Source: a virus | IMG/VR virus record: IMGVR_UViG_3300020147_000007 | Span: 1 to 39,174 of that record | Reading direction: 5' to 3' (one strand) | DNA: 39,174 nt | Shown: one piece after another, positions 24,545 to 32,412 of the stretch | How positions within the stretch are numbered: the first letter of the stretch is position 1 | How the letters are laid out: each line of letters starts with the position of its first letter | The notes under the pieces: model-generated | Seen by the model: the letters and a program-made list of their open reading frames with translations, nothing else | What the model was told of the DNA's origin: nothing | The model's database searches: none | Program-made: the position numbers and the translations under genes

Positions 24545-24834
24545 ACGTCCTCCTCGTTGGCCTTCAGGATGTCGGCCTCGCTGACGTTCAGTTGCGCCTG
24601 GATCCGCAAGTACACCTGGCGGCGCCCCTCCTGGATCGCCATCGCAATCGGGTCCACGGTCTTGTTCAGGCTCAGCGGCGCATTGCCCCGGTACGCCCCG
24701 CAGAACCGGGCCAGGTCCCGCATGACGTAGGCGCCGGACTTGGACAGCTCGTCGCCGTCGGGCAGCTGGAAGCACTCACGGTAGGACTGCTTTCGCAGCA
24801 GCAGGCGGCGGATGCGGTCGGTCAGCGCCTTCAC
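24541..24834 (-). CDS. Bbp19-like phage protein (97 aa)
   Basis: The pattern VMRDLARFCGAYRGNAPLSLNK, followed by DPIAMAIQEGRRQVYLRIQAQLN, matches the Bbp19 family named after a Bordetella podophage: an early RF.GAYR motif, then a conserved EGRR helix. It is normally encoded between the portal and the scaffold, exactly as here. Function is not known. It overlaps the portal gene stop by four bases. Confidence 0.75.
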   Translation of the reverse strand: MKALTDRIRRLLLRKQSYRECFQLPDGDELSKSGAYVMRDLARFCGAYRGNAPLSLNKTVDPIAMAIQEGRRQVYLRIQAQLNVSEADILKANEEDV

Positions 24835-26465
24835 AGCATCCCCACCGCGCTTGGGGTGGACTGGGCCAGCAACTGCGCCTCAGCCAGGTCCTTCGCGCCC
24901 TTGCCCAGCAGCGGGGCGGCCTGCACCACCTGCGCGGCCTGCTCCAGGCTGGCTTGCTGTTCGTTGTTCGCGGCCGTCTGTTCTTCGGACAAGCGCACGT
25001 CTTGCGGCACGCCCTGGATATCCGCCATCCGCATGGACCACTTGCTCCAGTCCATGCCGTTCAGGACCTCGGGCTTGATCGGGATCACCGGAGTCATCTG
25101 CTCGAGCCAGCGGGCCATCGCCGCGCCCTCGCCGGCCTGCTGCATCCGGTCCAGCGGCGAGGTGAACTTGACCGCCGTGAACCCGCCGGCCTCGGCCAGC
25201 TCCGGCGGCATTTCCGGCATCAGGCCGGGGACGTGGCTCAGGATGTCCAGCTCGCGCTCGATCATCGGCGACAGCAGCTCGGACTGCTGGCGGCCCACGG
25301 TCGGGCCCAGCAGCTCGCCCTTCTCCTGCGCGCGCAACAGGGCCTCTGTGGCCGTCATCTGCGGCTGCTCCACCAGAATCTGGAACAGGTCCACGAAGAA
25401 CGCCGAGTTGATGACCACGCGCGACTCCTGCACGAACTCCAGGCCCAGGTTCAGGTTGGCCCCGTTCTGGAACGGCACCACACGCGGCTGCCCGTTGTCG
25501 TCCAGCCAGCCCCGGTTAAGGGCGCCCGACTTCATGTTGAACGACTCCAGCGCGTCGTCGTCCACGGTCATCAGCGGCGGATGCACCGCGTGCTGGCCGG
25601 CACGCAGGATGGTCTTTTGCTGCTCGTTGATCAGGTTGAGCGTGTTCAGCACCATGTTGGCCGGGCCCCGGCCGTAGGTTTCGCGCGGCGCGGTCAGAAA
25701 CCGGCTGGGCAGGTACGGCATGGTCCGGTAGCCGCCTTCCTCGATGATCTCCCGGCCCTCGCAGGCCAGGTAGTACGAGGAGTACCGCATGCCCCGGTAG
25801 TCGCGCCGGTTCGGATCGTAGTTGCGGTTGTCCTTGACGCAGTGCAGGAACTCGAACTCCTGCTGGTCCTTGGCCCGGCGGATGTGGTCGGGCAGCTTGT
25901 CGCCCCACTGCGTCCGGGCCTGGTGCGCGGTCAACTTGAACTTGCGGTGCACCCGGTCCTGTCGGTTGGCGTAGTCCACGCCCCACCACACCTCGCCCAC
26001 GTACAGCGAGCGGTAGGACAGGTCCTTGCCGATGTCGTCGTCCAGGAACATGCAGCCGTTGCCGAAGGCACCCAGGCTCATGTACGTCTCGGCCGTGGCG
26101 TAGGTGAACCCGGCGCGCGGCGAGTAGCGGGCGCGGAACAGGATGTCCGTCACCTGCTCGCAATACAGCTTCACGGAGTGGTTGTTCGCCAGCTCCTCCC
26201 AGCGCGGCTCCAGTCCGTGCCAACGCTGCGTGCGCGGGGTCAGCAGGGATTCCACCGCAGCGGCGAAGCGGGTCAGCGCCAGCGAGGCGGTGGAGTCGAA
26301 CTGGAACTCGGAACGCCGTTCACCTTGAACGGAATCCTGGCGGAGAAACAGTGCGCACTCGGGCCACACAATCTCGGCCACCCGCTGGTTCATGGAATCG
26401 AACTGGAATCGAGCCGACTCCATCGCCTGCTGGTCGTTGAGGATGTCTTCAACCTTCACGGACAT
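24831..26465 (-). CDS. Portal (head-tail connector) protein (544 aa)
   Basis: Matches the T7-type portal family (T7 gp8 is 536 residues): RVAEIVWPECALFLR, WHGLEPRWEEL, YMSLGAFGNGCMFLD, GRGPANMVLNTLNLINEQQKT and VEQPQMTATEALLRAQEKG are characteristic blocks. A dodecamer at one head vertex, it guides DNA in and out and binds terminase and tail. ATG 26465 lies inside the end of an inserted HNH gene, with which it overlaps by ten bases. The C-terminus is Gln/Ala-rich helical. Confidence 0.9.
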   Translation of the reverse strand: MSVKVEDILNDQQAMESARFQFDSMNQRVAEIVWPECALFLRQDSVQGERRSEFQFDSTASLALTRFAAAVESLLTPRTQRWHGLEPRWEELANNHSVKLYCEQVTDILFRARYSPRAGFTYATAETYMSLGAFGNGCMFLDDDIGKDLSYRSLYVGEVWWGVDYANRQDRVHRKFKLTAHQARTQWGDKLPDHIRRAKDQQEFEFLHCVKDNRNYDPNRRDYRGMRYSSYYLACEGREIIEEGGYRTMPYLPSRFLTAPRETYGRGPANMVLNTLNLINEQQKTILRAGQHAVHPPLMTVDDDALESFNMKSGALNRGWLDDNGQPRVVPFQNGANLNLGLEFVQESRVVINSAFFVDLFQILVEQPQMTATEALLRAQEKGELLGPTVGRQQSELLSPMIERELDILSHVPGLMPEMPPELAEAGGFTAVKFTSPLDRMQQAGEGAAMARWLEQMTPVIPIKPEVLNGMDWSKWSMRMADIQGVPQDVRLSEEQTAANNEQQASLEQAAQVVQAAPLLGKGAKDLAEAQLLAQSTPSAVGML

Positions 26466-31266: not shown

Positions 31267-31557
31267 TCACTCCCCGTGTGTGAGCTTCCATTGGGTGTTC
31301 AACCGCTCCAGCATCAACTGCACCTGCACCAGCGTGGCGTCCACCCGGTCCAGCCGAGCCGTTACCTGCGCCAGGTCCGAACGGGTCGCCACGTCGTCCT
31401 TGGTCGCCAGCCGCTCCATCTTCTGCTCTAGAGACGTAATCCGGGCCTCGGACCGGTCAGCGCGCTCCACGAACCGGCGCAGCAGCCAGAAGGCCATGCC
31501 ACCGCCGCCCAGCGCACCCAGGATCGCGTTCACCAGGGACTCGGGGGTGAAGTTCAC
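31267..31557 (-). CDS. Membrane-anchored coiled-coil protein, GTG start (96 aa)
   Basis: Start GTG 31557 is fixed by a GTGA overlap with the endolysin-candidate stop. One membrane helix is followed by a long coiled coil: NFTPESLVNAILGALGGGGMAFWLL then RRFVERADRSEARITSLEQK, ATRSDLAQVTARLDRVDATL and LMLERLNTQW. Proteins of this layout (a small N-terminal TM, then leucine-heptads) are encoded next to endolysins in many phages and may form holin-like pores or anchors. The exact role is unknown. Confidence 0.65.
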   Translation of the reverse strand: MNFTPESLVNAILGALGGGGMAFWLLRRFVERADRSEARITSLEQKMERLATKDDVATRSDLAQVTARLDRVDATLVQVQLMLERLNTQWKLTHGE

Positions 31558-32066
31558 AGGCGGACCCCGTATTGCATGGCCGCCGTGTAGCGCTCGCGCC
31601 AGTGGGCGTACCCCGGCTTGCCGGGACGCCAGTTGCGCACATAGACCTCCCACGCATCGTCAGCCGCGCCGATGGCAGGGAGCGGACCCGGATCGGTCCA
31701 CAACAGAAGACGCGCGAAGGCAGCGGCCAGAACGTCATCTGTCTCCAGAGCAAGCCACACGGAACGAGGATCGGCCGGAACGCCACGGGCGAGGCATACG
31801 GACTGGGCGTTGCGCTTACTGGCCGGATGGGTCAGGACGCCTTTCACGCCGCCGCCACGCTCAAACTGCCACCCTCCACGTGCTGGGCCCTTGCCGCCCC
31901 CGTCGAGGACCTGGTAGCGGCACCAGCGGCCGCTCTTGAACCCTTCTTGCAGGGCGATAGCGCGCAGCAGAACTCGGGCTGGGGCTGAATCCATGCCGCT
32001 TGGCAGGATGGCGAGCGCCTGACTGATCGCGTCCTCGATCTCGGCGAGCGGGTACGTGATAGCCAT
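31554..32066 (-). CDS. Candidate endolysin (muramidase/transglycosylase-like) (170 aa)
   Basis: A compact soluble protein with RAIALQEGFKSGRW (Glu41), then GPARGGWQFERGGGVKGVLTHPAS (60-83) and a C-terminal WEVYVRNWRPGKPGYAHWRERY. A Glu in a helix followed by a glycine-rich strand with Trp-Gln-Phe-Glu resembles the active-site layout of goose-type and phage lysozymes, and the gene opens the lysis block with membrane proteins and spanins after it. No signal peptide is visible, so export would be by a holin. The enzymatic class is inferred. Confidence 0.55.
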   Translation of the reverse strand: MAITYPLAEIEDAISQALAILPSGMDSAPARVLLRAIALQEGFKSGRWCRYQVLDGGGKGPARGGWQFERGGGVKGVLTHPASKRNAQSVCLARGVPADPRSVWLALETDDVLAAAFARLLLWTDPGPLPAIGAADDAWEVYVRNWRPGKPGYAHWRERYTAAMQYGVRL

Positions 32067-32119: not shown

Positions 32120-32152
32120 CCAGAAAGACGAAGGCCCAGCGGTGGCTGGGCC
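32120..32152 (-). terminator. Rho-independent terminator on the minus strand
   Basis: An 8-bp GC-rich stem, GGCCCAGC/GCTGGGCC (32133-32152 in total), encloses loop CACC, then the T-rich run TTCGTCTTTCT on the minus strand. It ends transcription of the early leftward unit and of the structured RNA just upstream, before the lysis/late genes. There is no matching T-run on the plus strand, so it works in one direction only. Confidence 0.8.
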
Positions 32153-32155
32153 TCG

Positions 32156-32212
32156 GAGGGTTGTCGGCCGCAGGGAGGGCGGCGCTACCGGAGGGGAGCC
32201 GGTGAAACCCTC
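32156..32212 (-). ncRNA. Structured small RNA: three-way junction with two C-rich loops
   Basis: The minus-strand RNA closes with GAGGGTT (32206-32212) paired to AACCCTC (32156-32162). Inside are two perfect 5-bp stems: ACCGG/CCGGT (32187-32203) with loop CUCCCCU, and GCCGC/GCGGC (32167-32183) with loop CCUCCCU. Both seven-base loops are complementary to Shine-Dalgarno-type sequences (AGGGGAG, AGGGAGG), which fits an RNA that binds ribosome sites. A terminator follows four bases on. No gene overlaps it. This is a prediction from base pairing; the 5' end and expression are unknown. Confidence 0.55.
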
Positions 32213-32220
32213 AAAACAGC

Positions 32221-32291
32221 GCAGGCTGTCTTATCCAATTGGACGACTGGCGCGGTCAGAGCCAGGCGGGAATCGAACCCGCGTCTCCTGC
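32221..32291 (-). tRNA. Candidate circularly permuted tRNA (3' half before 5' half)
   Basis: On the minus strand, a 3' half (GCAGG, AGAC, T-stem GCGGG/CCCGC with loop TTCGATT, acceptor strand CTGGCTC, T) at 32258-32291 comes first. A five-base link (32254-32258, sharing the T) precedes a 5' half at 32221-32253: acceptor strand GCGCCAG, TC, then a canonical D-arm with loop AATTGGATA (A14, GG18-19, A21). CTGGCTC and GCGCCAG pair at six of seven positions, and GCAGG pairs fully with CCTGC as the anticodon stem. The anticodon loop is split between the two outer ends, so identity is unresolved. Two ordinary but broken tRNA remnants are an alternative. Confidence 0.4.
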
Positions 32292-32306
32292 TTGATTGGC
32301 GGGGTG

Positions 32307-32377
32307 GCCGGTGCTGATCTCCGGCTTTGCCAACGAACGGCCGTAACGTTGGCGGTTCGGACCTGCGGCCTTGCCGC
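32307..32377 (-). other. Run of hairpins before the tRNA-like element
   Basis: Upstream on the minus strand are GCGGC/GCCGC (32365-32377, 3-base loop), a 7-bp GCCAACG/CGTTGGC stem (32329-32353, 11-base loop containing ACGGCCGT) and GCCGG/CCGGC (32307-32325, 9-base loop). The whole 32307-32412 stretch has no gene. With the tRNA-like element, the C-rich-loop RNA and the terminator it may form one long structured non-coding transcript starting in the upstream gene. Confidence 0.45.
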
Positions 32378-32412
32378 GCATCAGCCTGCGCATTCACCCC
32401 TTACCTCAAACC

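Follow-up and report, generated by a model that had tools for sequence, protein, structure and literature searches.

The phage record IMGVR_UViG_3300020147_000007 (positions 1 to 39,174; this whole stretch of 39,174 nucleotides is referred to as the window) carries, on the minus strand at 32291-32221, a module that resembles a tRNA with its two halves written in permuted order, the 3' half ahead of the 5' half. We propose that this module is probably a permuted tRNA-like RNA of the YrlA kind, residing in a leader upstream of a lysis gene and folding as transcribed, and that it is thus probably a tRNA look-alike rather than a scrambled working tRNA. Neither cutting nor joining is required, since the YrlA layout can form in the RNA as written.

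Architecture of the module

In the 5' to 3' direction, minus strand 32291-32221 reads GCAGG-AGAC-GCGGG(TTCGATT)CCCGC-CTGGCTC-TGACC-GCGCCAG-TC-GTC(CAATTGGATAA)GAC-A-G-CCTGC, with the following parts:

32221-32291, minus: the permuted tRNA-like module as a whole, based on order, pairings, scanner, fold and alignment with other modules
32287-32291, minus: strand 39-43 of the anticodon stem, GCAGG, 5/5 pairs with 32225-32221
32266-32282, minus: T-arm, GCGGG-TTCGATT-CCCGC, stem 5/5, the best-conserved section of alignment A1
32259-32265, minus: 3' acceptor strand, CTGGCTC, 6/7 pairs with 32253-32247
32254-32258, minus: TGACC, a five-nucleotide cap linking both acceptor strands, read from the sequence
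32247-32253, minus: 5' acceptor strand, GCGCCAG, from sequence and scanner
32228-32244, minus: D-arm, GTC-CAATTGGATAA-GAC, with A14, G18, G19 and A21, stem 3/3, from sequence and scanner
32221-32225, minus: strand 27-31 of the anticodon stem, CCTGC, from the fold, with an extra G at 32226
32211-32214, minus: TTGA, predicted to pair with TCAA at 32295-32292 (constrained fold, -30.5 kcal/mol)

Four variable bases (AGAC) separate the GCAGG strand from the T-arm, the single acceptor-stem mismatch is C-T, no CCA is encoded, and the position of the cap is occupied by 3-8 nucleotides in the modules of other phages. The permuted order, the matching halves and all pairings named in an earlier reading made from the letters alone (the sequence-only reading) exist on this strand, as do the blemishes it listed, i.e. 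the acceptor mismatch and the one extra G ahead of the last stem. The RNA as written can adopt a tRNA shape comprising all four helices, in which the anticodon stem closes the structure and the acceptor stem is capped; the predicted TTGA/TCAA pairing extends the closing stem past a bulge. Scanned in the written order, the window yields no gene call at this site with ARAGORN or at the Rfam gathering thresholds.

The arrangement is not due to chance

The module is real and non-random. A strict scanner for a T-arm, an acceptor hairpin and a D-arm in permuted order yielded a single match, the window's module, in 2.39 Mb of phage DNA (both strands) and none in 23.9 Mb of shuffles, figures to be taken as a guide as the scanner was written after the element had been seen. 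This agrees with the sequence-only reading, which had considered the arrangement hard to obtain by chance. Given the 3' half, the chance of a matching 5' half is about 0.006 (38 allowed positions), and when CCTGC is also required after the 5' half, two matches occur in 2.96 Mb, with a chance of about 3e-5. Folding of the swapped halves, proposed earlier as a check, does give a cloverleaf: ARAGORN calls a tRNA for eight of eight natural 7-nt joins, with the extra G kept or removed, and for none of 3000 shuffled modules. The real 3' half passes as well with 0.9% of unrelated 33-mers in place of the 5' half, so that an ARAGORN call on its own lends the 5' half weak support. The folding energy of the module is ordinary (z -1.5).

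Resemblance to YrlA and to modules of other phages

In YrlA, which undergoes modification by DusA and TruB, the D, T and acceptor arms make up a tRNA-like domain, and Rsr, the homologue of Ro60, is held by a basal stem (PMC8394870). The best Rfam match of the window's module is YrlA (RF02553; 24.5 bits, E 0.008), spanning the T-arm, the capped acceptor and the D-arm; the order of these parts is common to both, and a closing basal stem, which may form in the window's module, would be a further likeness.

Similar modules are found in other phages. A search of phage records with the YrlA model revealed permuted modules other than tandem tRNAs in two large phages, and a pattern built from the outer stem of the modules found returned more. 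In an alignment of nine modules from six phage lineages, the window's included, 96.5% of the cells are paired; covariation amounts to 0.872 compared to 0.246 in shuffles, a value that counts for less as the members were chosen by the same pairings. The module of Caulobacter phage CcrColossus adjoins a TROVE gene, those of Klebsiella phages KP2025 and phi1_175008, Enterococcus phage EA1 and Pseudoalteromonas phage J2-1 adjoin a DUF2828 gene, and for that of Synechococcus phage S-CRM01 no partner gene was detected. The location of modules beside TROVE or DUF2828 genes suggests pairs of a phage Y RNA and a Ro60-like protein. One such neighbouring protein combines DUF2828, DUF7788 and a sub-threshold vWA match, and may be related to Ro60; no solved structure was matched by the sequence of the DUF2828 protein. 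The modules next to TROVE or DUF2828 (vWA-like) genes in named phages are at loci L219, L220, L221, L222, L225 and L208. The sequence-only reading knew of no established case in this type of phage. This is in need of revision, given the modules in the phages named above and a statement in PMC7765460, citing Sim and Wolin 2018, that YrlA modules occur in several phages. Among 45 papers of the literature collection searched that use the phrase 'permuted tRNA', none deals with phages to judge by title and abstract.

The modules of other phages are read as phage Y RNAs, and those with good anticodon loops may, in addition, mature into tRNAs. When joined, six of seven outer-stem elements form a 5-bp anticodon stem and a 7-nt loop with U33 and purine 37, for which the chance per element is 0.2-0.8% in shuffles. 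Permuted elements are located in L144/L188 (11513-12180), L189 (6077), L193 (156 and 347), L208 (3630) and L154 (minus strand, 3688). Most of these are closed by AAGACYC...GRGTCTT, followed by CTAACAGCA, their outer stem covaries (AAGGCGC/GCGCCTT, AAGACGC/GCGTCTT), and their joined ends yield Asn, Glu, Asp, Gln and Cys-type anticodon arms. A gene of the T4 RNA ligase 1 family (G544:C1:195078-195689 and G547:C1:40350-40961) is positioned about 8-10 kb from arrays of permuted elements. The frame AAGACTC-CTAACAGCAA...GAGTCTT also surrounds sequence without tRNA features, in L191 and L199. A plasmid match (H88) turned out to be an ordinary tandem tRNA sequence.

While the YrlA-like phage modules have the same permuted tRNA-like layout as the window's module, several of them possess a TROVE or DUF2828 neighbour and a longer outer closing stem, neither of which occurs in the window. 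A module at locus L163, located between tRNA genes, is closed by the anticodon stem like that of the window.

A number of observations weigh against assigning the window's module to the YrlA kind. Its score of 24.5 bits is below the gathering cut-off of 69, and ordinary tandem tRNA gene pairs reach 16-27 bits with the YrlA model; therefore the score does not prove membership and was dropped as proof. Likewise, model R1 was dropped as a discriminator, as tandem pairs reach 53 bits. The record has no match to Ro60/TROVE (PF05731) or DUF2828 (PF11443). The basal stem is short (5 bp plus the bulged extension), and a competitor fold is nearly equal in energy, the hairpin ACAGC-CTGC-GCTGT rivalling the anticodon stem (-31.4 vs -30.5 kcal/mol). 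No second copy of the module was found, and a close relative, L140, lacks it. In contrast to YrlA, the module further lies 3' of a phage leader scaffold. The open reading frame (ORF) at 24831-26465, considered as a Ro60 candidate, encodes a head-tail connector. By analogy, the module may work like the YrlA domain, with membership in the Y RNA family unproven.

Alternative explanations

The layout, together with the TROVE or DUF2828 genes next to similar modules elsewhere, would also be expected of a genuine phage Y RNA which binds a Ro60/Rsr protein encoded either by the host or by a portion of the phage that was not sequenced. This appears unlikely: the record itself has no TROVE or DUF2828 match, the window is devoid of the long P1 stems present near such genes in other phages, and the Rfam score remains under the cut-off.

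We regard it as somewhat less probable still that the module is debris of tandem tRNA genes, i.e. the 3' half of one gene followed by the 5' half of the next, retained by chance once the outer halves had been lost, or a relic of an attachment site. The local order in tandem tRNA pairs is indeed the same and their model scores are similar, and tRNA genes and tRNA-like pieces are plentiful near the leader core described below. However, outer tRNA halves are unrecognisable on both sides of the module, the anticodon strands pair 5/5 despite their supposed origin in two genes, and no integrase was found among the proteins tested, a subset of the ORFs.

The sequence-only reading had pointed to permuted tRNA genes, which need end joining. 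On this explanation, the RNA would be cut and its two outer ends linked within the anticodon loop, yielding a tRNA-Arg-like molecule. In algae and archaea, circularly permuted tRNA genes likewise have the 3' half written ahead of the 5' half, and ARAGORN accepts the swapped halves of the window's module. Phages do contain permuted tRNA sequences whose loops are of the decoding type, as the six elements mentioned above regain the full anticodon stem, U33 and purine 37 on joining, and two of the phages carrying them encode an Rnl1-type RNA ligase. However, algal and archaeal permuted genes yield decoding tRNAs, whereas the window's module cannot make an anticodon loop with U33: the joined loop would be one of eight natural 7-mers, and U33 is present in none of them (0/8). 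The module fails the formal join test that 6/7 permuted elements of other phages pass. No match to an RtcB or Rnl1 ligase was obtained in the record, and the extra base ahead of the stem, the acceptor mismatch and the lack of an encoded CCA also argue against such a gene. Conservation of order and pairing in related phages had been proposed as a further check. They are not kept: at the equivalent position of L140, the nearest relative with the same leader region (terminase TerL, 81% identity), the upstream RNA core occurs without a permuted module. Pattern scans of viral contigs for more copies gave either nothing or complete tandem tRNA pairs, and no copy turned up in bacterial genomes or in 300 genomes from the taxonomic order to which the host of a relative belongs. 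Because there is no join with U33, the module does not pass the join test, no RtcB or Rnl1 was matched and L140 lacks the module, a decoding tRNA produced by end joining is rejected, with a very small probability remaining. A group I permuted intron-exon element or another known ribozyme was dismissed since no Rfam match was obtained.

The leader RNA upstream of the module

Directly 5' of the module lies a structured RNA core:

32301-32400, minus: leader RNA core, from blastn and pairing across copies
32400-32395 with 32306-32301, minus: P1 of the core, GGGGTG with CACCCC
32391-32376, minus: hairpin 1, GCGC-AGGCTGAT-GCGC
32325-32307, minus: hairpin 2, GCCGG-AGATCAGCA-CCGGC

A variable insert separates the two hairpins, the loops of which may pair with each other (GCTGAT/ATCAGC). 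At a loose threshold (E<=10), blastn with the core region matched 356 phage records, mostly at the core element. Across 91 distinct copies, selected by hairpin 2 alone, each of P1 pairs 2-6 forms in at least 94% of cases and uses 4-5 standard pair types, and this pairing and covariation is strong evidence that the core is a structured RNA. The core was observed in over 100 phage contigs (window 32400-32301, minus; loci L002-L129). No Rfam family matched and no link to the Pas small RNAs (sRNAs) was found; the core is apparently a phage RNA scaffold that has not been described before. In HK620, it is flanked by gene Q and by the late terminator that precedes the holin.

Two features follow downstream of the module in the window:

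32131-32154, minus: hairpin resembling an intrinsic terminator, 3' of the module, weak (1 found vs 0.6 expected in shuffles)
31554-32066, minus: next ORF, lysozyme-like by a partial match to DNA annotated as lysozyme in Burkholderia phage AH2, assigned to PHROG 3108 of unknown function

The surroundings of the core are rich in pieces of tRNA. Within -250 to +400 of the core at 118 loci, T-arm hairpins that do not belong to called tRNA genes are about 23-fold denser than elsewhere (15 in 77 kb vs 17 in 2.02 Mb), the loci having been picked by the core and some possibly sharing ancestry. Examples are L012, L019, L040, L050, L077, L087 and L119, and some of these hairpins are minihelices. At L119, a tRNA without anticodon arm resides within the core insert (34.2 bits), and at L005-L011 and L146 two consecutive T-arm minihelices are located directly 3' of the core, e.g. 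CCACC-AGTAAAT-CGCGGGTTCGATTCCCGC-TA-GGTGG. By the strict scanner, the window's module is the only permuted one near the core.

Possible role and implications

The module would be transcribed from the late promoter. A tRNA elbow would arise from its T-arm, the acceptor stem with the five-base cap and the D-arm, while the anticodon stem would serve as the helix tying the module to the remaining leader RNA. Such an elbow may be recognised by host TruB, TrmA and dihydrouridine synthases, or by tRNA-binding factors such as PNPase, the latter being a candidate on analogy with reports on YrlA. The phage might thereby gain stability of its leader RNA or a tRNA decoy.

It might be speculated, tentatively, that the conserved leader scaffold, consisting of P1, two hairpins with complementary loops and a hypervariable insert, repeatedly receives tRNA-mimic modules of normal, reduced or permuted layout; on this view, the window's module would represent the permuted form without a Ro60 partner. 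If so, the scaffold would be a general phage device to recruit or distract tRNA-binding factors.

The permuted tRNA shape of Y RNAs extends to the leader RNA of a phage in which no Ro60 partner was detected, and permuted tRNA-like modules are common in phages. If the scaffold truly collects tRNA mimics, phages may use it to act against tRNA-handling or RNA-decay systems.
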